Positions 237 through 20,195 of a stretch of 20,226 nucleotides of DNA are shown here, piece by piece. How positions within the stretch are numbered: position 1 is the stretch's first letter; every line of letters starts with the position of its first letter. Where the stretch lies: positions 1 through 20,226 of the forward strand of contig JAHLKG010000053.1 of assembly GCA_025526995.1 (NCBI GenBank). Reading direction: 5' to 3'. Both the position numbers and the translations under genes were made by a program. Origin of the DNA: Powellomyces hirtus. Taxonomy: Eukaryota > Chytridiomycota > Chytridiomycetes > Spizellomycetales > Powellomycetaceae. The notes beneath the pieces were generated by a model. The model was not told the origin of the DNA and searched no databases. It saw nothing but the letters and a program-made list of their open reading frames with translations.

Positions 237-932
237 TCAACCAATCTTGGTGAAGGAGAATTGGCACCGGTTGCCGTGGCACCGGTCGCCCAACCCGCAC
301 CGGAGGGGGGTGTAATTTGCCACGTTCATCTCGCTGCGGAGAGAGCTGAGTTAGTCAGGTACGACAGCAGCAGGCCGAAGAGTACTACTTACGCGCGGAC
401 GTGGCCCATGCAGTGGAGATGGTTGCATGGAAACATGCGGAGGTCCGCTCCGACATGGTTGCAGCCAGCGAACTGGCACCCAGCGGGGATGGCCGCAAAG
501 AAGAGAACCCGGCCGCAGTGGGGGGCGCCGCACGTCAACTGGCCCTGAGGGCCGTCGTTCTGGAAAGCAAAGGAACGAAGGAACCACACCGTTAGGAAGA
601 CATCAGGCCGCCTCTCAGCGAAGGGGGGGGGGACATACCGTGTCATCGGCCGCCGCCACGATGCAGGGCCGGCACACCAAATGGTGGCATTCCGATGTGA
701 ACATCTTGCTCTTGCGGAATTGGTTGCACTTCCAGCAAGAGGGCAAGTCGGCCGACCTCTCGGGGGTGGACTTTTCATGGACCGAGGGGTCCTGTAGACA
801 ACAAGGGAAGACGGGGAACATGAGACGAGTTGCCACAGCCGAGGACGAGCACCGACCCCTACTCACCCGGGCGGGCTGGGCCCGCTTGGTTGCGCCTTTC
901 GCAAGTTGCTGGGCGGGCCGGCGCTTGCCCAT
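237..932 (-). CDS. antisense four-exon Cys/His-rich (RING-like) protein inside gypsy G1
   Basis: Predicted four-exon gene antisense to the retrotransposon, between pol and the 3' LTR. Exons on the minus strand are 932-867, 791-639, 559-393 and 333-237, giving about 160 aa. The introns are 75, 79 and 59 nt, with donors GTGAGT, GTATGT and GTAAGT and acceptors CTACAG, TTCCAG and CCGCAG. CTAAC-like branch sites are clear in introns 2 and 3. All junctions keep frame although the exons lie in different raw frames. The protein has a basic N-terminus (MGKRRPAQQLAKG). A RING-like array follows: CWKC, then C-H-H-L-V-C-R-P-C twelve residues later, then C-x4-C. A second cluster contains CNHLHC, and the C-terminus has C-x5-C-x4-C. 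There are 14 Cys in total. Zinc binding is inferred; E3 ligase activity is only possible. An in-frame extension upstream of ATG 932 is blocked by a C8 run. The exact family is not recognised. Confidence 0.72.
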
Positions 933-1017
933 GGTGGTGGTGGTGGTGTCGGGGGGGGAGGAGAGTTGTTGGGGGTGTCAGCCATGGTGTGTGTGCGTAT
1001 GTGTGTGTGTGTGGTGT
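932..1017. repeat. microsatellites upstream of the antisense gene
   Basis: A (GGT)n tract at about 932-948 is followed by a G8 run and then a TG-rich tract at about 989-1016. On the minus strand this is a CA-rich leader directly upstream of the antisense ATG. An alternative ATG at about 985 on the minus strand opens a Pro/Thr-rich frame that would join the antisense reading frame only if the C8 run changed length by one base. Confidence 0.6.
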
Positions 1018-1073
1018 GAGTTCGTCGAGCTACAAAGAAAAGAAGAGCGAGAGGGGGAGATTCAACGGGCAGT

Positions 1074-1086
1074 ACCTTTTAAAGGC
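1074..1086 (-). promoter_or_regulatory. possible TATA-like element for the antisense gene
   Basis: TTTTAAA lies in a near-palindrome (CCTTTTAAAGG) about 145 bp upstream of the antisense start codon. It is the most AT-rich point in this GC-rich stretch. The placement suits an antisense core promoter, but the motif is weak. Confidence 0.25.
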
Positions 1087-1151
1087 TCGACCTGCTTGGG
1101 AACGCTCGGAAATTCAGGTGTTAGTGTTTCATCCCCTACGGAGCGCAGCAG

Positions 1152-1403
1152 ATGTTACTTATCGAAATCTGCATGGAGGAAGCTACTCGTGATTCATCTA
1201 GGGCCCCTGCGAAGAGAGAAATAGACTTTCCGACGATTTCGCGCACCACGAAGGGCGGAGACTACCCGTCGGAGACTACCGCGACGCGACCCGCGCCAGG
1301 GCCGCCTCCCCAGCCTCATCTTCCCACAACCACGTCAGCATCCGTTAACCCGCCGCCGCCCGGCTTAGGCAAGCTTCGCCTCGCTGAAGAGATTCGAGCC
1401 TAA
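1152..1403 (+). CDS. small sense-strand ORF of unknown function next to the polypurine tract
   Basis: An 83-codon open frame ends in TAA 18 bp before the gypsy polypurine tract. The product has a charged N-terminal part (EICMEEATRDSS), a Pro/Thr-rich middle and a short charged end (KLRLAEEIRA). No domain is recognised. It lies upstream of the antisense gene on the opposite strand and could be chance in GC-rich DNA, a short accessory ORF, or part of the antisense promoter region. Confidence 0.2.
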   Translation: MLLIEICMEEATRDSSRAPAKREIDFPTISRTTKGGDYPSETTATRPAPGPPPQPHLPTTTSASVNPPPPGLGKLRLAEEIRA

Positions 1404-1420
1404 GAGATAGTCGCGAATCT

Positions 1421-1428
1421 AAGGGGGG
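1421..1428 (+). other. polypurine tract of gypsy G1 copy A
   Basis: AAGGGGGG lies immediately before the TGTAATGAGG start of the LTR. This is the expected plus-strand primer position and shows that the LTR at 1429 is a 3' LTR, so everything to its left is element interior. Confidence 0.8.
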
Positions 1429-1703
1429 TGTAATGAGGCGTGGCTCACCAGCCTAAGCCTAGACACGCGTCGGGAAGGGTCCCGCGCGAGATGGATGCTA
1501 GCGTCAGCATCCCGAAGGGTACTAGACCTCAGGGATGGCCACAGATGGCCATCACGTGACCAGGGCCGCTCCGCGGCCTAGAAGAAAAGTAGGAATGCTC
1601 TGACGAAGGCGCATTCAAGACTTAGAGATCTTACAGTAGAATTAGACATAGGGAATTCCCGAATAGAAGACTAGACTCTGGCAACGGACCTAGTATTATT
1701 ACA
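1429..1703 (+). repeat. 3' LTR of gypsy G1 copy A (275 bp)
   Basis: The LTR starts TGTAATGAGG and ends TATTATTACA, so it has 6-bp terminal inverted repeats TGTAAT/ATTACA. It matches 13860-14134 over the full 275 bp with two substitutions that I can find, both C/T transitions (near 1476 and 1611). It contains one CACGTG palindrome at 1553-1558 and a nearby pair of TGGCCA palindromes. Confidence 0.95.
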
Positions 1704-1708
1704 CGTAT
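1704..1708. other. target-site duplication CGTAT (right side of gypsy G1 copy A)
   Basis: CGTAT directly follows the LTR here and directly precedes the other gypsy LTR at 13855-13859. Removing the gypsy sequence and one CGTAT joins the copia frames as ...LAYC-VQHGLDIHS..., which is what a copia RT should read. This is therefore the 5-bp duplication of a gypsy insertion into copia RT. Confidence 0.9.
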
Positions 1709-3754
1709 TGTGTCCAGCACGGGCTAGACATCCACAGTATGGGCGCTGTCACCGCCTTCCTTAACAGCGATATTGATAAGGATATCTATATCGAGCAGTT
1801 TGAGGGATTCGAAGATCTGGATCACCCCAAAGGCGATTGGGTCCTGAAGCTACTGAAAGCTCTCTACGGCCTGAAGCAATCACCTCTTCTTTGGTATGAG
1901 ACCTTGAAGACTGCACTGTTGAAGCTCGGCTACGAAGCGGTTTCTGTATGCCCGTGTATCTTTTTCAAGTACGCGACAGATGACCGTACACCTCCGTCGA
2001 ACGACAACTTGGTCCTTATTCTCGTATTCGTCGACGATCTGCTCATTGCAGCGAAGGATCCGGAGATTCTGGCGACCAGCAAGAAAGAGCTACATTCGAA
2101 GTTCAAGTTTACGGAACAAGGTCGCGTAACCAGTCACCTTGGTCTCGTCTACAAATATGACTTCGACTCTGCTGTTCGTACCCTCAAAATCTCAAATGTC
2201 AAGTACATCGACGACGCTCTCGAACAATTCGGCATGAGCGACTGCCATCCTGTCTCCACTCCGTACGCCGTGTCAGCGCGTAACCAACAACCGGAGGATT
2301 CGACCCCATTCACGAATCTGAAAATGTATCAGGAAGCAGTGGGGGTCCTCACTTGGGCCTCCATCACATGGCGATGGGATATCGCCACTGCAGTCGGTTA
2401 CGTTGCGCGCCGCGTCGCCGCACCTACCAACTCCGACTGGAACAATGTTAAGCGCATTTTCCGCTATTTAAAGGGTACCCGCAATTATGCCCTCAAGTTT
2501 ACATCCGAACGAAATGATCCACGTGGTCTACGCGTATTCACGGATGCGGACTATGCAGGAGAACTCACCGACCGGACGTCCACTACAGGCATTTTGGCCC
2601 TTTACAATGGGTTCCCTGTTCTGTGGAAAAGCAGCAAGCAGAAGTGCACCGCCCAAAGTACGACCGAAGTGGAGTATATAGCTGCCAGTACCGGCCACAA
2701 CGAAGCCAAATGGCTACGCCAACTCTTGGCGGAAGTCTTGGGACCTCAACCGGATTACAAATCTCGACCGGTCCCTCTCCATGTCGATAATCAGAGCGCT
2801 GGGGCCTTGATTCAGTCTAAGGCTATCAACCAACGCACCAAACACATCGACGTTCGGTACCACGCTATACGCGATTCGTTCGCGAAGCAAATTATCGAAA
2901 TCATCGACACCAATACGGACGATCAACTGGCGGACATCTTTACGAAGCCTTTTCCCACTGTGAAACATAAGGACACTGTCCTGAGGATTACGAATGGGAC
3001 TCATATATTTGATGAAAGGATACGCAATGAGGGCGCGTCTACGGAAGCACACCAAGCTCAAGTGTTACTCGCTGAATGTCAGGAGAACTACTCACAACAC
3101 TGGCTTACCTTGGCTACTACACCGCAATTGCGGAACCCGAAGCAATGCCTCCCAAGGAGGATGGGCCTGCCCCTCCTCCATCATCCTCATCGCTTGAGGG
3201 TGAGCGTCGGCTTGAAGAACCCGATGGTCCCTCCAACTCCTCGGCTGCCCCCTCCTCCTCTTCCTCATCATTATATGGAGCTTCACGCTCCAGGATGTCC
3301 CACATCCTTTTCACCTCCGCTACAGACTTCTTGTCCGCAGCCCTCTTCTTCTCCTGGGCCGCATCCTTGCCCTTCCCAACCGCCAGCTTCCGGCTCCGCC
3401 GGTCCTCTAGTATGGACCTCAGTCCATCAAGCGTCCCGGTCGCCCGTGCGCGACCCAGAGACGTCCCAGACCTCGCCCGGTCTTTCACCCGGTCTTTCGC
3501 CTGCTCGATGTGACGTTCAAGGACCCCTTGACGGTCCTTGCGGTGGAACTGTCGGGCATGCGCCGCCGACATCGTTCGAATCTCCGCTCGGGACAACCCC
3601 GCAGCGGGTGCGCCTCCCTGTGGCGCAGAGGGCACCACTGACGACGGCACAGCAGGAGCTGTGGTCGTCGCAGGAGCGGTTACCGGCGGTCCCGTCTTTC
3701 TCGCTGTCTGCTTCGCTTTGCCCGAACCTGACAACTACACCGGCACATAGTTAG
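1704..3754 (+). pseudogene. copia C1 copy A pol, 3' half (RT C-terminus and RNase H)
   Basis: This is the 3' part of a Ty1/copia polyprotein, cut at the gypsy insertion. The frame is open from the LTR edge; the first ATG is 1739. RT motifs follow the Ty1/copia order: TAFLNSDIDKDIYIEQ, LYGLKQSPLLWYE, and the active-site FVDDLL near 2028-2045. RNase H carries FTDADYAGE (near 2536), the E of TEVEYIAAS, and HVDNQSA, and ends with DIFTKPFPTVKHKD near 2965. Normal copia pol would stop soon after this. Here the frame stays open to TAG at 3752, but the extension from about 3010 is Pro/Ser-rich and overlaps an antisense gene, so much of it is probably not functional. No nonsense codon is seen in this half. 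Confidence 0.9.
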
Positions 3755-3800
3755 AGCTTACGCCTCATTTGCGCGGATCTCATAGACGTACCCTAGCCAT
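3117..3800 (-). CDS. antisense two-exon gene of unknown function inside copia C1
   Basis: A 206-codon minus-strand frame (3734-3117, stop TAG) begins without an ATG and sits directly after a splice-like acceptor. The predicted intron is 3791-3735 (57 nt, donor GTACGT, branch CTAAC, acceptor GTGTAG). It joins the frame in phase to a 9-nt first exon, ATG GCT AGG (3800-3792), giving about 208 aa. The protein has an Ala/Pro/Thr-rich N-terminus and a charged helical middle (ERHIEQAKDRVKDRARSG, KKSVAEVKRMWDILEREA). An acidic stretch (NDEEEEEGAAEELEG) and a Ser/Asp-rich tail follow. The composition looks like a soluble, possibly nuclear, regulatory protein; no family is recognised. The opposite sense frame is Pro-rich and reads like a shadow. 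If the tiny first exon is wrong, translation could start at ATG 3572, giving 151 aa. Confidence 0.5.
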
Positions 3801-3907
3801 TCCTCGTCTTCTTAAATTGTAATAAATGGGGGTATGTGGGGTGTGTGCGCGGGGCTGTGTAGTAAAAGTAGATAGAGCAACTCTCTCACTGCCAGACTGA
3901 CAGGTCT
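3801..3907. other. copia C1 3' non-coding region
   Basis: This lies between the antisense start codon and the copia polypurine tract. It contains an AATAAA at 3821-3826 on the plus strand. The same AT-rich patch, read on the minus strand, is the best candidate promoter region for the antisense gene. A G/T-rich stretch occupies about 3827-3860. Confidence 0.4.
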
Positions 3908-3916
3908 GAGTGGGGG
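3908..3916 (+). other. polypurine tract of copia C1 copy A
   Basis: GAGTGGGGG lies immediately before the LTR start TGTTAG, interrupted by one T. It is the expected position of the plus-strand primer and identifies the following LTR as a 3' LTR. Confidence 0.7.
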
Positions 3917-4155
3917 TGTTAGCACGTACAGACTCTGTCATCGAGTCATAACTGCGCCATCGCAGGGCGTATCACGCGATCACGTGAGCCCACGTGATCA
4001 ACTCCGATATAAGTAGTTTTCCTTCCATACTTAATATATCGGTGGGACTTTTCTCTTTTTCTCCAGTAGAGCGGGATTAAGTTACTTCGTTGTTCTGCTC
4101 AGTCAACTACCCTAAAGCTTCCTCAATCATCTACTCAGATACTCTCAGACCAACA
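3917..4155 (+). repeat. 3' LTR of copia C1 copy A (239 bp)
   Basis: The LTR begins TGTTAGCACG and ends CAGACCAACA. It aligns along its whole length with 10114-10375, with roughly 15 substitutions (mostly transitions), a 20-bp indel and three 1-bp indels. Promoter-like content: two CACGTG boxes at 3981-3986 and 3991-3996, forming an inverted repeat with 9-bp arms, and a TATAAG box at 4008-4013. Confidence 0.92.
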
Positions 4156-4157
4156 AT

Positions 4158-4161
4158 TTAA
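4158..4161. other. candidate TTAA target duplication, left of Harbinger
   Basis: TTAA lies just outside the left inverted repeat and again at 7616-7619 just outside the right one. Because ATTTAAAT is palindromic, the true boundary is ambiguous. A 3-bp TTA/TAA duplication, usual for PIF/Harbinger, does not fit symmetrically. Confidence 0.45.
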
Positions 4162-4281
4162 TTGTGGCACAGCAGTCACATGTGAAGCCCCGAAATTTAA
4201 AATTCCCACTTGCCAACCTCACACATTGGCGCTATTTCTTGCTTTACTTTCTTATGTAATGCCCAAATAGACCGGTTGAGA

Positions 4282-5662
4282 ATGCTTGACAAATTCTGGG
4301 CCAAGTACGATACAAGGCAGTGGGGTAGACGCATTTTACAACGGAGACTGGAACAAAAAGAAGATGTGGAAAGAAAAACAGCAAGAAAGCGCCTCCGCAA
4401 CCGTGACCGCCTTAGAACACTCGGACAAGAGCGTCTACTTCGAGACTATTTCAGGCTGATTGCATCTACAGTGAAAAGGATTTTAGGCGCCGATTCCGAA
4501 TGTCACGCCAGCTTTTCCTGCGTATTCAAGCAGATCTGTGCAAAAGTGACCGTTACTTTAAACCAGTAAGTACGCTACCCGTTGGCCACGCAGTATGTTT
4601 GTATTAATCACAACCTCTGCAATAGCGTTGTGACTGTACAGGACTTACTGGTCTCTCATCCGAACAAAAGCTTACTGCCGCACTACGCATGCTCGCCTAC
4701 GGTGTTGCAGCAGATGCTGTGGACAAGTATGTTCGCTGCGCCGAAGCTACTGCAACAGTGGCATTACACCGCTTCTGTGCTGCCATTGTGCACATCTATG
4801 CCGCTACTTACCTGAGACCGCCAAACCAAAATGACCTAAATCATATATTGCAAATCAACAGGCAACGTGGTTTTCCTGGACTGCTTGGTTCTCTGGACTG
4901 CATGCCCTGGGCATCGAAAAACTGTTCTCGAGCGTGGGCCGGTCAATTTCAAGGCAAGGAAAAGGTTCTGACGATTATTTTGGAAGCGGTTGCAACCTAC
5001 GATTTACGAATTTGGCATTGCTCTTTCGGCGTTCCCGGCGCTAACAATGACATTAATGTTTTGGACCGCTCCCCTCTCTTTGATGACCAACTGGCTGGTT
5101 GCACACCAAACCTTGATTACGAGATTAATGGACGTCAATACACTCAAGGTGCGTTGCGTGGTGCGTGGTGCGTATCTGCACATTGCGTGGTACAGTACTG
5201 CATAGCACATACTCACGAAGAGCATTACTAGGATATTATTTGGTGGATGGAATATACCCTCCTTGGGCGATGTTTGTTCAGACGTTCTCACAGCCTGACT
5301 GCGAAAAGAAGAAGTTTTTTGCCCAAATGCAAGAGGCAGTGCGCAAAGACATAGAGCGTGCCTTTGGAGCATTACAAGTGCGATGGCACATTATTCAACG
5401 GCCCACTCGTGGATGGCATTGCGCGCAACTGGGAAATATCATGAAAACCTGTGTGATTTTGCACAACATGATTATTGAGGATCAAGGAGATGCGGCAATG
5501 GAAGATATAGCAGAGGATTTTGCCGACATTAACATCTCCCTGGGCAGTCGCAAAGAAACATCGCAACAAATAAGGAGAAAAACATTGCGTGACTCTGTGC
5601 TTCATCATCAGTTGCGCGCAGACCTGATACAACACTTATGGGAATGGAAGGGTAGTCAATAA
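4282..5662 (+). pseudogene. PIF/Harbinger DDE transposase, three exons, one frameshift
   Basis: The transposase would cut and join the element at its inverted repeats. Exons are about 4282-4565, 4626-5148 and 5232-5662. Intron 1 (4566-4625) has donor GTAAGT and acceptor AATAG; intron 2 (5149-5231) has donor GTGCGT and acceptor ACTAG. The exons recreate the family motifs FRRRFRMSRQLFLRI, LRMLAYGVAADAVDKYV, GFPGLLGSLDCM, NNDINVLDRSPLFDD, DGIYPPWAMFV and IERAFGALQ. The catalytic triad is D at 4896-4898, D at 5049-5051 and E at 5354-5356. Exon 1 has a frame break at 4453-4454: the family motif starting DYF resumes two bases later, which looks like a 2-nt insertion. Apart from this the frame spans about 411 codons, the usual family length. 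An in-frame ATG at 4210 is an alternative start. AATAAA overlaps the stop codon (5658-5663). Confidence 0.88.
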
Positions 5663-5862
5663 ATTGCATAAATCGTTTGCGATCCCTGAAACATGTCATT
5701 GCGACTCAATGAGAGCATGCGAGTGTGCAACGCAAACTGGAACCTTATGATGTATGCCTTAAAAGGGTTGACTGTTTCTTTGACACATGGCAATATGTCT
5801 CCAAAGCATTTTTATACTTATACTATACTAGGACAGCAATGCCGCGCTGTTTTCTCATCACA
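5663..5862. other. spacer between transposase and third Harbinger gene
   Basis: No separate feature is recognised. An open frame from ATG 5725 runs in phase into the next gene and would add 46 residues to its N-terminus. The region could be 5' leader or coding. Confidence 0.3.
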
Positions 5863-6299
5863 ATGCCTCGCCCTAAAAAACCCAGAGTCCAAACTGACGC
5901 TGAGCGTCAAGCTGAAGAGGATGCAGCAGCTCTTGTAATTTGTTAAATTACTATACTGCTTATAACACACCACTTAATTTGTTTGTATCAGGTTGCAAGG
6001 CGCGCAGTGCAGCTTCGTCAGCTGCAGCCCCAATACCCACGCCTCTACCAAGAGGCAATGAAGGAGCACCTTGATGCGGTAAATTGGAATATGGACTCGG
6101 CAAAGGTAATTGTAATATCATTTTCTGCTAACCTCGTTTACACTCACTGCAGCAAACTGTAACTCAGGCCAAGTTTGATGAAGTAACTGCATACGCGGAG
6201 AAATGGGTCCGTGCCTTTGCTTGGAGGGAAGGGGAGGGAAGGAGGAGGGGAGAAGAGGGGACGGGGCAAGGAGGAAGTGGAGGAGGAGGAAATGGGTGA
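5863..6299 (+). CDS. third Harbinger gene: small three-exon protein of unknown function
   Basis: Predicted exons are 5863-5934, 5992-6105 and 6153-6299, encoding about 110 aa. Intron 1 is 57 nt (GTAATT to TATCAG) and intron 2 is 47 nt (GTAATT to CTGCAG, with a GCTAAC branch site); both are phase 0. The start gives MPRPKKPRVQ, a short basic stretch like a nuclear localisation signal or AT-hook-like tail. A Gln/Arg-rich helical segment follows (RRAVQLRQLQPQYPRLYQEA), then KFDEVTAYAEKWVRAF and a Gly/Arg/Glu-rich end encoded by a purine tract. The gene lies between the transposase and the convergent Myb-like gene. No family is recognised. The start could instead be ATG 5725. Known PIF/Harbinger elements usually carry two genes, so this may be an accessory protein or a captured fragment. 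Confidence 0.5.
6222..6296 (+). repeat. purine-only-like tract (G/A rich)
   Basis: About 75 bp are almost entirely G and A, with repeated GGAGGG, GGGGA and GGAGGA blocks. It encodes the low-complexity C-terminus of the third gene. Several G-runs could form a G-quadruplex or triplex. Confidence 0.6.
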
Positions 6300-6352
6300 A
6301 AGTCCCGAGCAAAGCGACCGTAAACTCGGTGGCTACCTTAACCGGTAGACAG

Positions 6353-6362
6353 GTTTTTTTAT
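6353..6362 (-). terminator. poly(A)-signal-like site for the Myb-like gene
   Basis: TTTTTTTATT on the plus strand reads AATAAAAAAA on the minus strand, about 14 bp past the Myb-like stop. It lies in the short gap between two convergent genes. Confidence 0.5.
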
Positions 6363-6375
6363 TCACACATGAACG

Positions 6376-7431
6376 CTAGCTGCTATCCTCACTTTGCAGT
6401 TCTTTGGCCAAGGGAGACAAGGCCTTTTGAGCAATGGAGCTTTCACGCCCAAAAAGCTGTACCAGTCTTTCCACCCTGCTAAGACGCTGCTCGTTCTCCT
6501 TTAATTGTAGCTCACGTTGCTGTATTTCCAGCTGTTGCTTCACAAGTTCCAACTCTTCATTCTTCAGTAAGTCCTCATCTCGTCGGCGCTTTGCTCGTTT
6601 GATACCAATTGGACGGACTTCGTCCTCTTCTCCTGCTGCCTTTTGTGGCGTTTTCTCGCTGTCTGCCATAAATCTAAATAGAGTTGATGTTAAAGCATTT
6701 CTTTACCACGCAGTGCGCATCGCGCAGGTACGCACAACATGACCACGCAGTACGCAGGTACGCATCACGCAGTATGTTGCCACGCAATTAATTGCTTACC
6801 TGGGGCAGTTCTGCAGTAAATTGTAGGCGTGCAGCAGGACAAACTTTTGCTTTTCCGCTCTGTAGTAGAAGTCTTCTCCTAGAAGAACGATTTGGTCTCT
6901 AGTGGCGCCACTGGGCAATGAAGCTGTGGCTGAGCGTATATGTCCTGCGAATTTGGCAACCGCACGAGACACAACCCCCCAGCGGTTTTTCAGCGAGCTT
7001 CTGGTCCACGCTTCGTCTGGTGGATTGTCTTTGAACACCTTATGGATTCGACTCCAAAGTGCATCCGCTTTCTGCACGTTGCCGGTGATGGGGTCCTCAG
7101 ATATCTGAATCCAGACCACGCATAGGCGCTCGTCTTCTGTGCGAGAGAACCCTTTTCCTCTTGCACCACGCCACAAGAATGATTCTGATGGAGGTGTGGC
7201 CTGTGCTTGCGGTGCAAGTGTTTGGCGTGGAGTTAGCGGTGTGGCCTGTGGCGGAGCTGGCAAAGCCAAAGGGAGATGTATAGGCGGGACAAGTAGGCTG
7301 CTTTCTCCAGATTCTGTGTAGGTAGCTCCAGTATACGCAGCCGGGTTCTGTTTTAGCAAAGCTTGCGCAGCAACAGAATGCGGGTTTTGAGCAATCAACT
7401 GTGCAATTCGTGTTATAATGGGGTCTGCCAT
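6376..7431 (-). CDS. Harbinger Myb/SANT-like DNA-binding protein, two exons
   Basis: This is the second hallmark gene of PIF/Harbinger elements; such proteins bind the transposase and the element ends and help nuclear import. Exon 1 is 7431-6800 and exon 2 is 6673-6376. The 126-nt intron (6799-6674) has donor GTAAGC and acceptor TTTAG, joining CCC-AG to A-TTT-ATG in frame. The product is about 309 aa. A Pro/Ala-rich N-terminus is followed by a trihelix/Myb-like domain at residues ~95-155 (FSRTEDERLCVVWIQIS, SLKNRWGVVSRAVAKF). Exon 2 encodes a basic patch (KRAKRRRDED) and a Glu/Gln coiled coil (EELELVKQQLEIQQRELQL), as in the NAM-associated C-terminal domain common in this family. No inactivating change is seen. 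Confidence 0.85.
6674..6799 (-). repeat. CCACGCA-rich repeats in the Myb-gene intron
   Basis: The intron carries four CACGCA(G) copies within about 75 bp (near 6712, 6743, 6766 and 6780), with interspersed ACGCAGGTACGCA. The same word and its reverse complement TGCGTGG occur in both transposase introns (4586-4601 and 5152-5202). CACGCAGTATGTT is shared exactly by this intron and transposase intron 1. Confidence 0.65.
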
Positions 7432-7588
7432 GACGAAGGCAACTTTACGGGGTCGACTGTTGAGAGGCTTTATTTTAAAAGCTGGGAGCCGACCGGTTTC
7501 AAATATGAACTGTGGCGCATGAAAGTAGCGACGCTTAGTACAAAATAGCGCCCCCGCGCCACACCTATAACAGTGCTTTGGGAACCAC
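7432..7588. other. 5' flank of the Myb-like gene inside Harbinger
   Basis: This 157-bp non-coding stretch lies between the Myb-like start codon and the right inverted repeat. An AT-rich patch (TTTATTTTAAAA near 7469) about 40 bp upstream of the start is a possible core promoter. Nothing else is recognised. Confidence 0.35.
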
Positions 7589-10389: not shown

Positions 10390-13316
10390 AAATGGTAGGC
10401 AATGAAACAAGCCCCCGTTACACTCATAGTATGTTAAGACGCCTAGCGGGTCGACGGACCCCAGGGTCCAATACGCTACAACAAGCCGTAGATCGTGCCG
10501 CTAAGAAAAGCGCACGAGTGCCTGGTGAATGGACATCACCAAGCAATGGAGGGAACTCTGCCGGTAATGATACACTGGCAGAGCCAACGTCTTTGAGTGT
10601 CGACGCCAACGAGGGCGACGATGCATTGGAAGGGCGTACCCGAAACATCGACCGACGGGATGCCAAGGTTGATACCCGTCCCCTATCAAGCAGTACGGAT
10701 GATTACAGAACGATCAACTACAGTACTCCAGCGGCATTCCCAAGTGGGGAATCAGCAAACACTGTGCATGTCCGCCCGCGTGGGGCGGACATGGATAGGA
10801 TAGATCGGCTTGAGAATTCTCTAGCCCAACTAACGGAAATGCTCCAAATGAAGTGGCGCATGGATCAGGATGTGAACATCCCGATCAACCCTCAGGTACG
10901 TACGGCGCAACGGTGCGTACGCACACCATCACCCACTCGCAACGACGGGTTCGCTGCACCGTGGACAGAGTACAATCAGTAGATTGGAGCTCAACAGGAA
11001 TACCAACGTTCTCCAACCGAACACCGCCCTACGTCACCGACATCGAGCATACACAGCGTGACGACCAAAATCGTCGACAGTCGAGGTGCGAAGGCTTTCG
11101 TGGATGGAACGCTGAAAGATATTGGGTCCTACAATGGAAAATCCAATATGGTCAAACTTTGAACGTTCATCGACAAGATCGAGACAGTTGTGAAGTACGA
11201 AATGGTTCCGCCCGAGTTTCTCGTAGATTTTGTGGCTACGAAACTCACAGGATGGGCATACACTTGGTGGCAGTCGCTCTCACCAAATAAAAGGAACGAA
11301 ATTACAACGTGGCATGACTTTGAAGACGTTGATTCAGGAAGAACCAACACCGGTCTCAGGTCCGCCCTTCTGGCGCGGTTCGCGCCACGAAACCACACTA
11401 GGGATTCGCTGCAGAAACTACGGGAATTGCGTCCCAAAGGCCGCATGGATGAGTACATCACTCAGTTTAACATGCTGGCATTTTCTCTGCCGAAAACACC
11501 GGATTACGTCCTTCAGGATTACTTCATCAACGCGCTAACACCAGACCTTGCGGCCTTGGTTCAGGCTAATGAAGAAAACATAACTGATTTGAGCAGTTTA
11601 CAGGCCGCTGCATCCAGGATCGCCGCCAACATGGCTAAGAAACCTAGCGGGACCACAACGGATACGCGACCAGGTGCCGCACACACTGACGCCTCTAAGA
11701 AACAAAAGGGTGGCAAGAACCACGGGGAGAAGTCAACGAACGGCAAGAAGGACAAGGAATCTACTCCATCAAACAAAGGCCAGACCCAAAAGTCGGGTTG
11801 TTGGGCCTGTGGAGACCCTAAACACCGAACACAGGAGTGCGAAGTGTTAAAGAAGTTCAAATCCGAGATGGAGAAGAACAAGACGAAGCAGTCGTCTGAT
11901 GGTGCTGTTAGCACAAATGCTGTGGAAGCATTACACGTCTGGGTCCGCCAAGAACAACCGTATGAAGCCCTCATCGACTCTGGCGCTACGGACCACATGA
12001 CACCTCACAAAGCGACCTTGGATCACTCAACCGTGTACAGTGATGTCAGAGCTGTTATGCTTGCTGACAAAACATCACTACCCTCTACAGTTCGAGGTAC
12101 GGTACGAGTAGAAGTTAACGACTATCTGAATCCGCTCAAGTTGGGCGGAGTCCTGCATGTGCCAGGACTACGACGAGATCTCGTATCGGTAGCAAAATGC
12201 AACGATCAAGGCGTTGACGTGCTCTTCAAATCGAATGGAGACGTCATTTTCACGCGAGACGGCAAAGAAATCGCCAAAGGCGTACGCCGCAACAACACGT
12301 ATTACCTGCAAGGTACGCTGCTGTCTGAAAGTCTGTGGACAGATTCAGAAGCATGCACTGTCGAAGTCTCTCCTACACTCGCTCATGCTCGTCTTGGACA
12401 CGTTGGCAAACACGTCCTGGAGAAGATGGCATCGGTTACGGACGGTTGGTCCGTAGTGGGGGATCTAAGCGACTTCAAAGATTGTGAAGCCTGCGTGTTA
12501 GGAAAAGCCGCTCGTCTTCCATTCTCCCCTGGTAACGTTGAAACCAGGGAGATCTGTGAGCTGATTCATTCAGACCTACAAGGACCATTTCGCATCCCTG
12601 GTTACGAAGGATCACGCTATTCACTGGAGTTCATTGAACACACATCCAGATACGTGACTGTTTTCCCTATTCCTTCAAAGGATTCAGCAGTCATACTCGA
12701 CAAGTTTCTCATTTACAAGGCTTGGATTGAGAAACAGACTGACCGACACATCAAGATTCTACGCACGGATCGAGGCACCGAATACTTTGGCGAAGTTCTA
12801 GAGTACCTATTGGAAAATGGTATCACTCATCAAAAGTCCGCGGCCTATTCGAGTCAGCAAAACGGGATTGCCGAACGATGGCATCGCACGGCGCTGGACA
12901 GGGTCCGCGCCACCTTCGCGGATACGAAACTACCCCGAAGATTCTGGCCTGCTCTACTGATAGCGGCTGGATACATCTATTCCCTTACGTACAACCGCAT
13001 CAACAAGAAGACGCCGCATGAAATACTGTTTGGCCGGCGTCCTGATGTCGCCCATCTTCGGCGTATCGGTTGCGTGACGTATTCCGTTCTAACAAGCAAA
13101 GGACGCGATAAAATGGGAAATCGAGCGAAGAAGGCTTACTTGGTAGGCTATGCTCAACCCTCAGGTACCAAGGGGTATCTGGTTTGGGATCCTATCACTG
13201 ACAAGGTCGAAGTGTCACGAGACGTGATCTTCAAAGAAGACTTGGGACTCGAACCCAAATATCAGCAGGATCCAGCACATCTTGACCTCCTAGATGAGGT
13301 GGGTCAGGAGGATGAC

Positions 13317-13475
13317 GTCGAATACGCCGTGGAGGCAATTATCGACGAGCGCCGCAGTAAGGCGCACACGAAAGAGTACTTGGTTAAGTGGGAGGGATAT
13401 CAAGAACCTACGTGGGAGTCCCGACTTTCACTACTCGACACTACCGCATTGGATGACTGGGAGAATCGAGTCGCC
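13317..13475 (+). other. chromodomain within the copia polyprotein
   Basis: The segment reads VEYAVEAIIDERRSK, then EYLVKWEGYQEPTWES, then TTALDDWENRV. It has the aromatic Y/W/W positions and the LVKWxGY core of chromodomains that bind methylated histone tails. It lies just after the integrase C-terminal region and before RT. The same fold occurs at the end of the gypsy G1 pol (19097-19255), but the sequences differ. Confidence 0.85.
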
Positions 13476-13854
13476 GCGTACGATGTCGGCACACGACGAA
13501 ATGACCCCATTGCTGCATACGCCGCCCGCGCGCGGACTCAAACAACGATCAACGAAGACGCCATGACATGGAAGCAAGCGATGAAAACCCCTCAGAAGGA
13601 GGAATTTCTCAAGGCTGCACGCATTGAGTACCAATCCCTGGTCGATAACGGTACATGGGAACTCACGAAGCGTCCACATAACAAGCGTGTGATCGGAACA
13701 ACATGGGTCTTTCGAACGAAGGTCAATCCCGATGGCACCTTTAACAAGTTCAAAGCCAGAGCAGTGGCTCAAGGTTTCTCTCAACAACCCGGTCGCGACT
13801 TTGGTGATACATATTCACCTACGCTACCATTCACAGCGCTACGCCTCTTCTTGG

Positions 13855-13859
13855 CGTAT
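13855..13859. other. target-site duplication CGTAT (left side of gypsy G1 copy B)
   Basis: These are the last five copia bases before the gypsy LTR. They are identical to the five bases after the other gypsy LTR at 1704-1708. Confidence 0.9.
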
Positions 13860-14134
13860 TGTAATGAGGCGTGGCTCACCAGCCTAAGCCTAGACACGCG
13901 TCGGGAAGGGTCCCGTGCGAGATGGATGCTAGCGTCAGCATCCCGAAGGGTACTAGACCTCAGGGATGGCCACAGATGGCCATCACGTGACCAGGGCCGC
14001 TCCGCGGCCTAGAAGAAAAGTAGGAATGCTCCGACGAAGGCGCATTCAAGACTTAGAGATCTTACAGTAGAATTAGACATAGGGAATTCCCGAATAGAAG
14101 ACTAGACTCTGGCAACGGACCTAGTATTATTACA
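13860..14134 (+). repeat. 5' LTR of gypsy G1 copy B (275 bp)
   Basis: The LTR runs TGTAATGAGG to TATTATTACA and is nearly identical to 1429-1703. It is followed directly by a primer-binding site, so it is a 5' LTR. CACGTG lies at 13984-13989. It replaces the rest of the copia RT frame. Confidence 0.95.
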
Positions 14135-14162: not shown

Positions 14163-15380
14163 ATGGCACGTAGCACCAGGAACAGCCCAATGGCAGTAGG
14201 AGAACCCAAAGTCGACACACCGACCGACAACCCCGTCGCAATGTTAGCTGCACAATTGGCGGAGACCCAACGCCTACTGCAGGAACAGATCGCAATGGGA
14301 GAGGCCCGCTTCGAAGCCCTTCTCTCAAGGATTCCGACCCCAGTCCAACCAGCGGTTGCAACACCGCACGTCGACATCATCCTGGCGGAAGAAAACCGCG
14401 CACGAATGCAAGCCGAGAAGGAACGCCGCGAGAACCTTCGCAAGCAGCTGACACACTTCGACGGAAAAGGGAACAGTGAAGAAATGGTGTCAAAGGTCGA
14501 CGAGTTCCTGAAGGTCCACACGCGCTACCTTGAGGCAACCGACTTCAGGACGGACCACCGGGACGTCGACCACATCTCGGGGTACCTCAAGGAAACCGCC
14601 AACGAATGGTGGCAAATGCTCAGAGATGCCGGCGACCAGCCCACGACATTGGAAGAATTCACGAGGATCCTCCGCATCCGCTTCTACCCCGCCAACTTAC
14701 GAAACACCGCAGAAGCAAAGATGAAGCGGTTGGTTTTCACCAATAGCATATCGGAGTATATCGCCAAGTTCAATACCCTTCGGGCCCAGATCGCGACGCT
14801 TGACGACAAGGAGCGGCTTACCCCAAGGCAAGAACGTGACTATTTCTTGACGGGATTCTCGACCAACCATGTCGGCCAGCGCATTCGGGACCACTGCTAT
14901 GCCGCAATCATGAGGAATAATGGCGCCGAGATCCCGATCACCAAGCTACAGAATGAAGCTCTACTATGCTACAGGATTCGAGGCTATGCGGACGATGTCG
15001 CGCGGGTAACCCCCGACGGGAGGAGACGTCAGTACGCTGCAGTCCAGCCGGCTCAGGTACATCGAGGGAACTATCAAGCACGAGAAAGGGGACGCCACAC
15101 CCCCTATGGCTCAGGTCCAGGTCGTCCCACACGCGGTATGGACAACTACCAAGGGATTTCACGCCGTGAGCGCACCATCTACGACGAACGCCGTGAGCGC
15201 AACGAATGTTTCAACTGCGGGGGCAAGGGGCATTACGCCCGTGGGTGCCCAGCAAGTAAAGGTAAAACCGGTGAGCATAGGACGTTCGCCGCCCCTGTAG
15301 AGATCACCGAAGGGTCCGGAGACGAGGCGGCCAGCGACGGGAGCTCAGTCAACAGCTCGGATTTTCGCCCCGGGTGCTGA
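14163..15380 (+). CDS. gag: gypsy G1 Gag (capsid and nucleocapsid)
   Basis: An intact 405-aa frame. Residues ~35-95 are Gln/Arg/Glu-rich and likely coiled coil (LAAQLAETQRLLQEQIAMGE). A retrotransposon Gag capsid domain follows at ~100-230 (VDHISGYLKETANEWWQML, EFTRILRIRFYP). The C-terminal part is Arg-rich and ends in a zinc knuckle CFNCGGKGHYARGC at 349-362, the RNA-binding nucleocapsid motif. It then runs into an acidic Ser-rich tail. It forms the virus-like particle that packages element RNA. The stop TGA overlaps pol, which is open in the -1 frame from 15281. No inactivating change is seen. Confidence 0.92.
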   Translation: MARSTRNSPMAVGEPKVDTPTDNPVAMLAAQLAETQRLLQEQIAMGEARFEALLSRIPTPVQPAVATPHVDIILAEENRARMQAEKERRENLRKQLTHFDGKGNSEEMVSKVDEFLKVHTRYLEATDFRTDHRDVDHISGYLKETANEWWQMLRDAGDQPTTLEEFTRILRIRFYPANLRNTAEAKMKRLVFTNSISEYIAKFNTLRAQIATLDDKERLTPRQERDYFLTGFSTNHVGQRIRDHCYAAIMRNNGAEIPITKLQNEALLCYRIRGYADDVARVTPDGRRRQYAAVQPAQVHRGNYQARERGRHTPYGSGPGRPTRGMDNYQGISRRERTIYDERRERNECFNCGGKGHYARGCPASKGKTGEHRTFAAPVEITEGSGDEAASDGSSVNSSDFRPGC

Positions 15381-15412
15381 ACGCTTGCACCGTCTCAGTA
15401 CCCCAACCCCGA

Positions 15413-18400
15413 ATGCAAGACAAGATCCCCACGGACAGACCGGGACCCCGCATTCACAGGAAGACATTTGTGGTCCACGGGAAGGTACAAGGGCACTTTG
15501 CCCGCATCCTAATCGATACCGGATGTAACACCCTGATCATCAGCGACACTTGGGCCGCCAAACACGGCCTCCGGACCTACACCTCCCCAACTCCGCTGGA
15601 GGTCCGGTGGGGCGACAGAGCGGGAAACTACGGGGCAACAAAGATGACCTGTGGGGACCTCTCGGTGTTCACTGAGGAGAAGATCATCTACCGGGAGGAT
15701 ACCGTACCGTTCGTGGTCGCGCCGATCAGGGTCGATGCCATATTGGGCTTGCCATTCATATTGGGGCTGGACGTCCGAGGGCTTTTCGACCAAGGGGGCT
15801 TTCCAACGATGACGTTCTACCACGACGGCCAGACCCTCAGCCTTCGAGCCAAATCGACCAACCGCCACTGGGAAGCACCATCCGCGTGCGCCGCCCGTCT
15901 ACTCTCCCCACGAGAAGTACGGCCCCGCAGATTCCAGCCGGCGAAGCCAGCACTCAATGCAGAGGGAATCTACACGGCCAAGCAATGGAAACGCTTGATG
16001 AAGAAGGGCGAGATCACTGGAGTCTTCGAGGTACACATCGTAGATGCGATTCCAGTCGCAGAGGCTCAATTTGTACGGACGGTCGACGCCAAGAAAAGGG
16101 CAATCTTGGAGGAACGACGCCACACCAACACTGAAGCCAAGGCGGCAGATCAAGAAGACCCGCTAGAGACGCTGGCAGCCGACCATCCACTCCGACTGAC
16201 CCTAGAAAAATACGTCACGACGCTATTCACCGAGCAGTCAGGCATGCCTCCGGACCGAGGCGAGGACAATTTCACCATTCGGCTCAAACCCGGCTCGAAG
16301 CCCGTGATGCAGCCACTCCGGCATTTGAGCCCTGACGAACTGGACGAGCTCGGCCAGCAGATGCAGCGTTTAATGGACAAGGGTTGGATCTCACACTCTC
16401 GCAGTCCGTGGGGCGCGCCCGTCCTATTTGCCCCAAAGAAGGACGGCGGCCTACGCTGCTGCATTGACTACCGGGCACTGAACAAGATGACTCACAAGGA
16501 TGCCACGCCACTTCCGAACCTCTCGGAGCTGCGCGACAGGCTTGTCAACATGCGGGTATTCACCGCGATCGACATCCGCGACGCGTACCACTGCATCATG
16601 ATCCGACCGGAAGATAGGGAGAAAACAGCGTTCCGAACACGTTTTGGACATTTCGAATACAATGTTCTACCTTTCGGCTTAACTAATGCACCTGCTACAT
16701 TCCAGCGACTAACCAACAAGCTCTTGGGCGACAAGTACGACGCCTACGTGATCTCATACCTCGACGATATCCTCATATTCAGCACCGACATGAGTTCGCA
16801 CATTCAGCACGTCGACGAGGTCCTCAAGACCTTGACGGAACATCGCCTCCACGTCAAACCCAGCAAATGTCAATGGGCGGTTGACGAAGTCGAGTTCTGC
16901 GGCCACCGAGTCGGCAAGGATGGCCTAAGTATCGCCCCCTCCAAGGTGACCGCGGTCCGGGAACGACCTCGCCCGACCAACTCCCTGGAGCTCCTTAGCT
17001 TCATGGGCCTCGTCAACTATGTCAAGGAATACATCCCCGAGTATGCACAGATTGCCCTACCCCTAACGAATCTGCAATCCGGCAACCGCCCATGGCAGTG
17101 GGGTGACGAGGAAGATCGAGCGTTCAATCGCTTAAAGGAATTATGCTCCTCGGCACCCACCCTAGCGTACTTCGACCCGGCGCTCGACACCTACTTGTTC
17201 ACGGACGCATCGGGCTACGCCTACGGCGGATGGCTGGCGCAGCCGGCCAAAGGGGATTTCCCTTACCCTCACCCACTACCAACCACCAAATCGGGCTTAG
17301 CCAACCTCCCGCAACTTCGCCCGGTGACATACTACTCCCGCAAGATGCAACCCGCCGAGACTCGATACCCCGTGCATGAACAAGAACTACTGGGATTAGT
17401 CAAGTCCATACGCGCCAACCGCCATTACCTCATCGGCCGCCCATTCCGCGCGTTTGTTGACCACAAGTCCCTGATCTACCTCCAGGAACAACCCCACCTG
17501 TCACGTCGCCAAGCAGGCTGGGTCGAGTTCCTCCAACAGTTCGGTTTCTCAGTGGAATACCTCCCCGGCACATGGAATTCGATCGCCGACTTCCTCAGTC
17601 GCGACCCGACTTACGCCCCCAAGTGTGCAACCTGCCAGGCCAAGATCGACGTGGTCACCGCCATTGTGCAGACGGAGAAGCCCGTCCCGACGCACATGCC
17701 GACCGATGCGGACTGGACCCAGGCGCTCGCATCGGATGATTTCGGCCAAAACATCTTACTAACCATCAACAGTCCCCCGGAGAACCTATCCGGCCATGCA
17801 CGCCGATTCCGGACAGTGGACTCCCCTCCGCACCGATTCTTGATGTACCATGACCGTCGGTACGTCCCCGACAGCTTGCGGGGGCCACTCCTTCAGATTC
17901 ATCACGACTCCCTCGCGAACGGTGGTCACTCCGGTGTCCAACGGACGCTCGCCAAACTTCTGGAGTCGTATTACTGGCCCCACATGGAGCGTGATGTGTA
18001 CCAATATGTCCGCACCTGCCCTACCTGCCAACGTCACAAGCGAACCGCGCCGATCGGTTTCCTCCGCAGCTTACCGATCCCCGACGCCCGTTGGCAACAA
18101 ATCGGCATGGATATATTCTTCCCCACGTCAGATTCTAAGGGGGGGGAACCTCGGGTAGAGCCCGACGTGACGAAGAACCCCCCGCACCACACCAGCGAGA
18201 GACTGACCAAGACGGCAGACGCCGTACTCCTCATCGTCGACTACCTTTCATGCCGCGTGATACTCCTACCTACTAACACACGCGCTACAGCTCAGGAGAT
18301 GGCTCAACTCTTTCTGGAACAGGCATTTCGCCACACGGGGTTACCCCACACCATCGTGAGCGATCGGGACCCCAAGTGGCTATCAGAATTCTGGCGGTAC

Positions 18401-19303
18401 CTCATGCGGGCACTCGACGTCAAGCAAGAACTCTCGTCGGCACGACACCAACAGACCGACGGCAAGGCGGAGAACGCCATCAAGACGATCAAGGGAATCA
18501 TGGGCCCCTTTCTCGACTATGCCGGCTCCAACTGGAAGAGTTTACTCCCCACACTCGAGTACAACTACAACCGAACGCCGCAGACGTCGACGGGACTATC
18601 CCCTTTCGAGATTGACCTAGGCCGCGCTCCCCGGGTACCGAACCAATGGGTAGCACCTAACCCCGGAGAGATGATAAGGCAATCGGCACGAACCGCCGTG
18701 GAGAGACGGATTAAGGAATTCGCCGACGTGAGTCGCATCGTGCAGCAACGGCTCCGAGATGCACAGGACCAGCAGGCAAAGTACTATGACCGCAAGAAGC
18801 ACACGGAAGCATACCGAGAGGGTGACAAGGTCTTACTCCATCGTGAGGGTATCGCGATTACCAGCGTCACCACAAGGAACAAAAAGCTGGCTGAGCAATG
18901 GATTGGGCCATTCACAGTACGCGGCAAGGGGCCGCATCCTGACACCTACGAGCTCGAACTACCCAAGGAGTTCACCGGATTGCACCCAGTCTTTCACGTC
19001 AGCATTCTGAGACGTTACCATGACCCGGGCGATACCCCGTACAGACAGGTCACCGCTCCGCCTGAGCCCGAGAAGGACGAAGACGGTCAGGAGACCTACC
19101 AAGTGGATAAGATCCTAAATGCCAGATGGCACAGGAACACCGAGCAGTTCTTAGTCAAGTGGACAGGTTACGACAGCACCCAGAACACGTGGGAGCCGTA
19201 TGCACACGTGAAGGGGACGACCGCGCTGGAAGAATGGCTCCGGGAGCACCCCGGAGAGGACCGCGGCCAAAGGCTAGCGGCCAGGCGACGTAAGAGAACC
19301 TAG
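15413..19303 (+). CDS. pol: gypsy G1 Pol: protease, RT, RNase H, integrase, chromodomain
   Basis: An intact Ty3/gypsy (chromovirus) Pol. The frame is open from 15281, overlapping gag by 100 nt in the -1 frame; its first ATG is 15413, so expression is probably by frameshifting or reinitiation. Counting residues from 15374: protease active site DTG 48-50; RT with CIDYRALNKMT, LPFGLTNAPATFQ and YLDD 462-465; RNase H from TDASGYAYGG (D611). The integrase has the HHCC zinc site (H843/H844 region, C882, C885) and triad D913, D997, E1033. A GPY/F-like module (WIGPF, FHVSILRRY) follows, then a C-terminal chromodomain from 1242 (FLVKWTGY). The spacing between the first two integrase aspartates is longer than usual by about 25 residues, with a hydrophilic insertion after FFPTSDSK. 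The order PR-RT-RH-IN defines Ty3/gypsy. Confidence 0.95.
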   Translation: MQDKIPTDRPGPRIHRKTFVVHGKVQGHFARILIDTGCNTLIISDTWAAKHGLRTYTSPTPLEVRWGDRAGNYGATKMTCGDLSVFTEEKIIYREDTVPFVVAPIRVDAILGLPFILGLDVRGLFDQGGFPTMTFYHDGQTLSLRAKSTNRHWEAPSACAARLLSPREVRPRRFQPAKPALNAEGIYTAKQWKRLMKKGEITGVFEVHIVDAIPVAEAQFVRTVDAKKRAILEERRHTNTEAKAADQEDPLETLAADHPLRLTLEKYVTTLFTEQSGMPPDRGEDNFTIRLKPGSKPVMQPLRHLSPDELDELGQQMQRLMDKGWISHSRSPWGAPVLFAPKKDGGLRCCIDYRALNKMTHKDATPLPNLSELRDRLVNMRVFTAIDIRDAYHCIMIRPEDREKTAFRTRFGHFEYNVLPFGLTNAPATFQRLTNKLLGDKYDAYVISYLDDILIFSTDMSSHIQHVDEVLKTLTEHRLHVKPSKCQWAVDEVEFCGHRVGKDGLSIAPSKVTAVRERPRPTNSLELLSFMGLVNYVKEYIPEYAQIALPLTNLQSGNRPWQWGDEEDRAFNRLKELCSSAPTLAYFDPALDTYLFTDASGYAYGGWLAQPAKGDFPYPHPLPTTKSGLANLPQLRPVTYYSRKMQPAETRYPVHEQELLGLVKSIRANRHYLIGRPFRAFVDHKSLIYLQEQPHLSRRQAGWVEFLQQFGFSVEYLPGTWNSIADFLSRDPTYAPKCATCQAKIDVVTAIVQTEKPVPTHMPTDADWTQALASDDFGQNILLTINSPPENLSGHARRFRTVDSPPHRFLMYHDRRYVPDSLRGPLLQIHHDSLANGGHSGVQRTLAKLLESYYWPHMERDVYQYVRTCPTCQRHKRTAPIGFLRSLPIPDARWQQIGMDIFFPTSDSKGGEPRVEPDVTKNPPHHTSERLTKTADAVLLIVDYLSCRVILLPTNTRATAQEMAQLFLEQAFRHTGLPHTIVSDRDPKWLSEFWRYLMRALDVKQELSSARHQQTDGKAENAIKTIKGIMGPFLDYAGSNWKSLLPTLEYNYNRTPQTSTGLSPFEIDLGRAPRVPNQWVAPNPGEMIRQSARTAVERRIKEFADVSRIVQQRLRDAQDQQAKYYDRKKHTEAYREGDKVLLHREGIAITSVTTRNKKLAEQWIGPFTVRGKGPHPDTYELELPKEFTGLHPVFHVSILRRYHDPGDTPYRQVTAPPEPEKDEDGQETYQVDKILNARWHRNTEQFLVKWTGYDSTQNTWEPYAHVKGTTALEEWLREHPGEDRGQRLAARRRKRT

Positions 19304-19365: not shown

Positions 19366-19520
19366 CGAGATTCCGGCATCGTTGGACGATGGCCGGAGGC
19401 TGTTGGACAGCATGCCTCGCTGGGCGAGATGCCGGCATCGTTGGACGATGGCCGAAGGCTGCTGGGCAGCATACCTCACTGGGTGAGATGCCGGGATCGC
19501 TGGGCGATGAGCCGACGGCT

Positions 19521-19890
19521 TGCCGATGCAAGGTGACCGGCACCAGATTTGCATGGCGGCGTACCTCGAGACCCGCGGGGACCATGGCCGTGGTACATAC
19601 CTACGCGAAGGGGAAGAGAAGGGCTTCGGCCAAGATACCGGCATCGTTTGACGATGGGCCGAAGGCCGCTGGGCGGCATACCTCACTGGGTGAGAAGGGT
19701 GATGCTGGGCATCGACCGGCTGCCGATGCAAGGTGACCGGCACCAGATTTGCATGGCAGCGTACCTCGAGACCCGCGGGGACCATGGCCGTAGTACATAC
19801 CCACGCGAAGGGGAAGAGAAGGGCTTCGGCCAAGATACCGGCATCATTTGACGATGGGCCGAAGGTCGCTGGGCGACATACCTCGCTGGG
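19521..19890 (+). repeat. 200-bp tandem duplication inside the hairpin array
   Basis: TGCCGATGCAAGGTGACCGG starts at 19521 and again at 19721, exactly 200 bp later. About 170 bp after each start match with only a handful of differences. Two of the hairpin differences are compensated: GCCGC/GCGGC becomes GTCGC/GCGAC, and CTCAC/GTGAG becomes CTCGC/GCGAG. Confidence 0.88.
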
Positions 19891-19920
19891 CGAGATGCCG
19901 GGATCGCTGGGCGATGAGCC

Positions 19921-20195
19921 GAAGACTGCGAGGCAGTAGACCTCACGAGGTGAGATGCCGGCATCGTTGGACGATGGCCGAAGACTGCGAGGCAGTAGAC
20001 CTCACGAGGTGGGATGCCGGCATCGTTGGACGATGGCCGAAGACTGCGAGGCAGTAGACCTCACAAGGTGAGATGCCGGCATCGTTGGACGATGGCCGAA
20101 GGCTGCTGGGCAGCATATCTCGCTGGGCGATGAGCTGAAGACTGCGAGGCAGTAGACCTCACTAGGTGAGATACCGGCATCGTTGGACGATGGCC
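19921..20195 (+). repeat. 59-bp tandem repeats
   Basis: Copies begin GAAGACTGCGAGGCAG at 19921, 19980 and 20039 in direct tandem, and a fourth lies at 20137-20195. A variant unit with TGG loops sits between the third and fourth. Each unit holds one hairpin with stem ACTGC, one with stem CTCAC, the palindrome GATGCCGGCATC (GATACCGGCATC in the fourth copy) and the CATCGT hairpin. Confidence 0.9.

Follow-up and report, generated by a model that had tools for sequence, protein, structure and literature searches.

Antisense genes are already known from the region between pol and the 3′ LTR of LTR retrotransposons, where the aORF-3R class includes maize Grande gene23, genes of rice RIRE2, Silene Retand and PvRetro13, and brtn of the fungal element Boty. 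The proteins of this class, as treated in parts of two reviews, have either no clear similarities or domains of the TRP28 or SMC type (PMC7264820, PMC11963269), and the word "intron" is absent from the main text of both. Retand also has tandem repeats lying past pol and before the 3′ LTR, according to part of the second review (PMC11963269), as does the element described here. Deltaretroviruses have antisense, spliced genes near the 3′ LTR, HBZ and APH-2, as outlined in part of a further source (PMC3185765). The gene that we describe, carried by a Ty3/gypsy retrotransposon of the chytrid Powellomyces hirtus, has the place and orientation of aORF-3R and is likewise present in many copies and conserved in its coding sequence; unlike that class, it has three introns, a RING-type ligand pattern and an exchange of two versions. 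It consists of four exons, is under purifying selection, moves with its element and exists as two old versions on common backbones. Antisense orientation, splicing and proximity to the 3′ LTR are features shared with HBZ and APH-2; HBZ, in contrast, starts in the 3′ LTR and encodes a bZIP factor, whereas the chytrid ATG, at position 985, lies 444 bases from the LTR (1429), and the chytrid gene has three introns between coding exons and a RING-like ligand pattern. No homology to HBZ or APH-2 was found, and Pfam scans of the gene's proteins returned no bZIP family. The kind of gene, an antisense accessory gene, is known; the introns, the RING-like pattern and the version exchange are the variant here. 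A literature search, a weak one with subscription papers mostly outside it, turned up no LTR retrotransposon with an intron-containing antisense RING gene.

The stretch of DNA analyzed, hereafter the window, is an entire 20,226-nucleotide contig (C53) of the 29.26-Mb, 60-contig genome, and both contig ends fall inside copies of one Ty3/gypsy element. The left copy (1-1703) comprises the end of the pol-to-gene linker, where the contig starts (1-236, plus strand), the antisense gene and a 3′ LTR (1429-1703, plus strand) bounded by TGTAAT..ATTACA and immediately preceded by a purine run. The right copy, from 13860, lies on the plus strand and contributes a 5′ LTR (13860-14134) with 99% identity to 1429-1703, gag (14163-15380; PF03732 and zf-CCHC), pol (15374-19303; protease, reverse transcriptase, RNase H, integrase and chromodomain) and the start of a linker (19427-20098), the contig ending before the antisense gene of this copy. 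The linker between pol and the gene carries tandem repeats of ~60 bases, in the window at 19427-20098 and in copy L025 at 6002-6734. A location between pol and the 3′ LTR, proposed in a sequence-only reading of the window, holds in other copies, the pol of the left copy itself lying outside the window. The window also contains a PIF/Harbinger-like transposase gene with likely introns (4210-5662; PF04827 at 4689-5228, E 6.3e-44) and a Ty1/copia-type polyprotein (11190-14012) with gag_pre-integrs, Pol_BBD, SH3_retrovirus and RVT_2 domains. The copia-type polyprotein has a chromodomain between integrase and reverse transcriptase, above cut-off (PF00385, 34.8 bits, E 1.6e-8), a domain typical of Ty3/gypsy chromoviruses rather than of copia elements.

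The gene lies on the minus strand, to which all of the following features belong. A TATA-like motif, CCTTTAAAAGG (1075-1085), ~90-100 bases 5′ of the ATG, may serve as the promoter, and a similar motif lies 5′ of the gene in all 11 other copies whose upstream DNA was inspected. Exon 1 (867-985) runs for 119 nt from the conserved ATG and is followed by intron 1 (792-866, 75 nt), exon 2 with RING ligands 1-6 (639-791), intron 2 with a C10 run (560-638, 79 nt), exon 3 with C-x4-C, the final RING pair, and the second Cys/His cluster (393-559), intron 3 (334-392) and exon 4 with C-x5-C-x4-C and the stop (237-333). Much of the sequence-only reading is borne out by this structure: all three introns are GT..AG, introns 2 and 3 contain CTAAC branch-like sites, in line with the branch sites claimed for two introns, and the C-x4-C pair, said to appear only upon removal of the C10-containing intron, is indeed in exon 3, with the C10 run in intron 2. 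Its 160-residue protein with 14 cysteines needs amendment, since the cysteine count is right for the joined 160-residue reading but the start is not, the conserved ATG at 985 giving 178 residues. The exon phases, likewise, join from an internal ATG at 932, from which the window copy is open, but not from ATG 985, because exon 1 is 119 nt in this copy (the commonest lengths being 120 nt, in 14 copies, and 114 nt, in 13) and the frame is thereby lost. We rejected a start at ATG 932: ATG 985 has counterparts in versions A (that of the window), B and C, whereas B, C and a good number of A copies have another residue in place of the internal Met. That translation starts at ATG 985 is also shown by the N-termini, which read MADTPNNSP.. 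for A and MDVDRNNSP.. for B.

A DNA search of the genome gave 79 candidate places, 40 of which (the window and 39 others, all matching at 93-100%) were scored and examined as version A copies; the genome holds more than these 40, since by protein search at least 153 exon-level matches were present. Among the 40 copies, exons 2 and 3 always keep their lengths (153 and 167 nt), exon 4 is 97 nt in 37, and 38 have GT/AG at every one of the six splice positions. Intron 1 measures 75 nt in 39 copies and 76 nt in one, intron 3 is 59 nt throughout, and intron 2 takes seven lengths (74, 75, 76, 77, 78, 79 or 81 nt). The joined frame is open from the equivalent of ATG 985 in 31 copies, a count in which L044 and others that lack the usual stop are included; the other nine, to which the window belongs, have no open frame from the first ATG, and 39 copies are open through exons 2-4. 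The retention of exon lengths, splice sites and frame while intron 2 varies puts the four-exon structure beyond chance. A lack of exon and splice-site conservation in related copies was to have counted against the sequence-only reading; we find the opposite, and its four exons and three introns on the minus strand are kept across the scored copies. The deposited P. hirtus protein P0002 (DFJ77DRAFT_512327) is reproduced exactly from contig C15 by a three-intron GT..AG model whose splice junctions are the same three as those of the window gene. With splicing supported both by conservation and by this deposited gene model, sequence comparison makes it almost certain that the locus is a real spliced coding gene.

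The protein search also revealed places at 34-48% and 62% identity, from which 14 loci were fetched: 11 of version B (L050-L060), two of version C (L048 and L049) and one of version D (L061). Version B has ~55% amino acid identity to A, and the B, C and D loci have exon order and phases as in A; the B introns measure 58-59, 74-76 and 62 nt, against 75, 79 and 59 nt in the window. With an A query, all four exons were found in nine of the 11 B copies, seven of which have six canonical splice sites (the third acceptor of L056 was placed otherwise by the script), and five of these seven (L051, L052, L053, L057 and L060) encode 178 residues. Exon 4 is out of frame in L054 and L055, and L059 has a stop in exon 4 and an altered donor. 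Ligands are lost at some positions in L048 and in L026; since L048 has two non-canonical splice dinucleotides as well as lost ligands, it is a relic.

The comparison of exons with introns and the dN/dS estimates that the sequence-only reading had called for agree, window against B, in finding exons better kept and replacing changes held back. The window is 60-68% identical to five B copies in exons and 39-52% in introns. By the NG86 method, applied to exons 2-4 of the window and eight of the 11 B copies (L050, L051, L052, L053, L057, L058, L059 and L060), dN/dS is 0.27-0.33 at a dS of 1.2-1.9; the value is 0.20 against the C copy L048, 0.53 against the broken D copy L061 and, with L058 excluded, 0.16-0.49 among the compared B copies. 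In all eight pairs, the largest silent excess of the six frames falls in the frame of the gene, one minus-strand frame showing a smaller excess. A sense-strand ORF at 427-1224 was considered as the selected frame and rejected, as the antisense frame has the larger silent excess in eight of eight pairs. Among the 40 A copies, per-site differences are 0.096 at silent sites, 0.052 in introns and 0.032 at replacing sites; since introns diverge less than silent sites, they are not simply free to change within A, base composition being one possible reason for their low divergence.

The carrier is a Ty3/gypsy chromovirus of ~8 kb. Its pol scores for protease, reverse transcriptase, RNase H, integrase and chromodomain, with the rve domain under its cut-off (24.0 versus 32.6 bits), and its gag for Retrotrans_gag and a zinc knuckle; the domain order, the C-terminal chromodomain, the LTRs and 5-bp duplications all uphold the earlier attribution to Ty3/gypsy. 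In 19 of 20 A copies fetched with long flanks, matching gag or pol lies beside the gene, with a 3′ LTR beyond it (gag is complete in 13, pol at least 96% covered in 14, and L011 has neither), and the antisense gene occupies the same place in the B, C and D contexts L062-L064. Eleven of the 20 have two full LTRs, and nine of these are flanked by identical 5-bp target-site duplications, the two without being L017 and L027. The paired LTRs and target-site duplications imply that the gene moves with the element, and the near-identity of LTR pairs, which match at 249-274 of 275 columns (274 in L009 and L018), that the carrier was recently active. The gene is conserved across copies that were located through it, so the count covers gene-bearing elements only. 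In the sense genomic RNA the introns are reversed and should not be spliced out; they would survive each round of retrotransposition, to be removed only from the minus-strand transcript, and would for this reason persist in the DNA copies. This reasoning agrees with the intact introns of copies that have LTR pairs identical at 274 of 275 columns. The same logic of a reversed intron is used in the intron reporters of retrotransposition assays.

The RING-like spacing noted from the window is present as eight ligands in C3HC4 order, by spacing only. In copy L012 they read C59-x2-C62-x12-C75-x-H77-x2-C80-x2-C83-x17-C101-x4-C106, and RING finger proteins such as RING1B and PCGF have the same eight-ligand C3HC4 order; the last pair of the chytrid protein, C-x4-C, is unlike the C-x2-C of the common RING finger. 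Further residues downstream in L012, C119-x4-C124-x11-C136-x-H138-x2-C141-x2-H144 and C159-x5-C165-x4-C170, could form a second zinc module. Profile matches are modest: Pfam RING scores fall under the curated cut-offs (best 16.6 bits against 21 for PF00097), zf-RING_5 matches four of eight members (best E 0.001), and the best matches among solved structures are PCGF5 (E 0.008) and RING2/BMI1 (E 0.014). An AlphaFold model, built from two sequences, has a mean pLDDT of 31.8 and is unusable for the fold. Ligand spacing nevertheless makes a RING-type zinc fold probable. Many E3 RINGs have Ile or Val before the second ligand; in the chytrid protein this residue is Lys, so ubiquitin ligase activity is not assured, and we regard the case for a protein that works through ubiquitin as evenly balanced. 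Searches for relatives outside Powellomyces found none: one gave a single match among 18 candidates, and another gave three matches among 5,530 candidates from a database of 5.8 billion proteins, none from outside the genus. The product is likely a RING-type accessory protein, whose function we infer.

Versions A and B have apparently been exchanged between closely similar elements. The B context L062 (7.8 kb), whose sequence extends from within gag to past the 3′ LTR, matches an A copy at 93-100% in every 100-base bin from 900 to 6400 except one (89%), then at 86%, falls to 51-69% over 6500-7200, where the gene lies (6502-7249), and returns to 73-83% over 7200-7500 and 88-99% from there to the end. 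Eight B copies with longer flanks were compared with A over the last part of pol: five (L062, L066, L067, L068 and L069) are 94-97% identical, L070 is 93% and L071 89%, and L065 has no real match. A and B thus share pol; the pol of C and D is distant, at ~54-75% amino acid identity over matched pieces, and yet dN of the gene is lower between A and C (0.25) than between A and B (0.38-0.56, L058 included). In a pol tree of 420 bases and 27 of 30 copies (L011, L065 and L067 dropped out), B copies fall among A copies, L069 with ten of them (support 0.99) and L066 with L024 (0.82), many nodes being weak; in an LTR tree, also of 27 of the 30, A and B are less mixed, and L062 stands beside the main A group (0.99). 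Since A and B genes both occur on backbones whose pol DNA is up to 94-97% identical, we conclude that the gene was exchanged as a cassette. The simple reading is that recombination between elements has replaced the whole gene, probably on several occasions; template switching during reverse transcription would be one example of a route. Within pol, the A copies L013 and L025 differ more over ~700 bases (88-94% at element positions 1800-2500) than elsewhere (mostly 95-100%), perhaps another exchange tract.

The only named relative of the gene, P0001, raises the question of what is read and where it belongs. It is the "oncoid" of Powellomyces chytrid fungus MELD virus 1, a 21,205-base record, and is identical to the joined exons of the window at 125 of 129 aligned residues; its 197 residues were deposited as one unspliced viral ORF, in which introns 1 and 2 are translated and exon 4 is absent. 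Judged by this alignment, the oncoid corresponds to this same gene, translated straight through two of its introns. That the gene might really be read in this way gains something from the deposition itself and from the many A copies, among the matches listed, that are open over introns 1 and 2 (residues 1-197 without stops). We reject this reading as extremely improbable: across 40 copies the lengths of exons 2 and 3 are constant but intron 2 has seven different ones, the B introns measure 59 and 76 nt, neither divisible by three, and would break the unspliced frame, exon 4, which that reading loses, is under selection in the A-B comparison, and P0002 is spliced. The identity of P0001 could alternatively mean that a gene of a DNA virus passed to the retrotransposon, or the reverse. 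Five Pox_A32-type packaging ATPase matches (PF04665) above cut-off, possibly from integrated DNA viruses, occur in the genome (C26:295663-296112, C30:128246-128602, C13:791515-791901, C50:14180-14566 and C3:300575-300952), one of them ~15 kb from a copy of the gene; PF03175 and PF16903 match neither the genome nor the controls and are uninformative. The identity to the oncoid is, however, matched by that between retrotransposon copies, and gag or pol lies beside the gene in nearly all long-flank A copies, which makes a passage between virus and element improbable.

If the gene is a spliced gene of the element, its product might still act on the element itself. A protein that restrains its own element or relatives, a swap of versions changing mutual recognition as in phage immunity regions, would sit well with two old versions on near-identical backbones, mixed among A in the 420-base pol tree, and with the many copies that the genome tolerates; yet it is less easy to see why selection would preserve such a self-inhibitor in the majority of copies, it has no known binding site or target, and an arms race with the host would yield the same exchange. 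We consider such copy control unlikely. Nor is the protein likely to be incidental to an antisense RNA that forms dsRNA with the genomic RNA, although antisense transcripts possibly acting through dsRNA are discussed for other elements in part of one review (PMC7264820): replacing changes are constrained relative to silent ones, exon lengths stay in frame and GT/AG is kept, none of which an RNA function needs, and this explanation has, in our estimation, only a slim chance. The best explanation overall, which we hold tentatively and somewhat short of an even chance, is a spliced antisense RING-like accessory gene that directs ubiquitin to a host restraint factor; that the target is such a factor is, taken alone, rather doubtful. 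On this explanation, positions 237-932 would comprise the greater part of an accessory gene conserved in a Ty3/gypsy chromovirus, likely transcribed on the minus strand from its own promoter into a transcript likely spliced from four exons, which would yield a predicted 178-residue RING-like zinc-binding protein. Zinc would be bound by the RING-type cluster and by the second cluster of cysteines and histidines, the basic N-terminus (KRR..QQL.K.A.K) may direct nuclear entry, and the protein, by targeting a restraining host factor with ubiquitin, would benefit the element. Each of the swapped versions would recognize a different partner.

A public record presents this retrotransposon gene, its introns translated, as a viral oncoprotein-like ORF. 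The domain pattern of this gene suggests a biochemistry that involves zinc and possibly ubiquitin, its three introns, being reversed in the copied RNA, could be retained, and the natural swaps between near-identical elements provide matched pairs for testing. A broader proposal, to which we give about one chance in a few, is that the spliced gene determines specificity and can be exchanged as a cassette: two ancient versions would have been swapped between otherwise near-identical elements, and whichever is present would set the partner of the element, be it a host restraint factor or rival copies. If that were true, the chytrid gene would play in a retrotransposon the part that immunity cassettes play in phages or that ubiquitin-using accessory genes play in lentiviruses.
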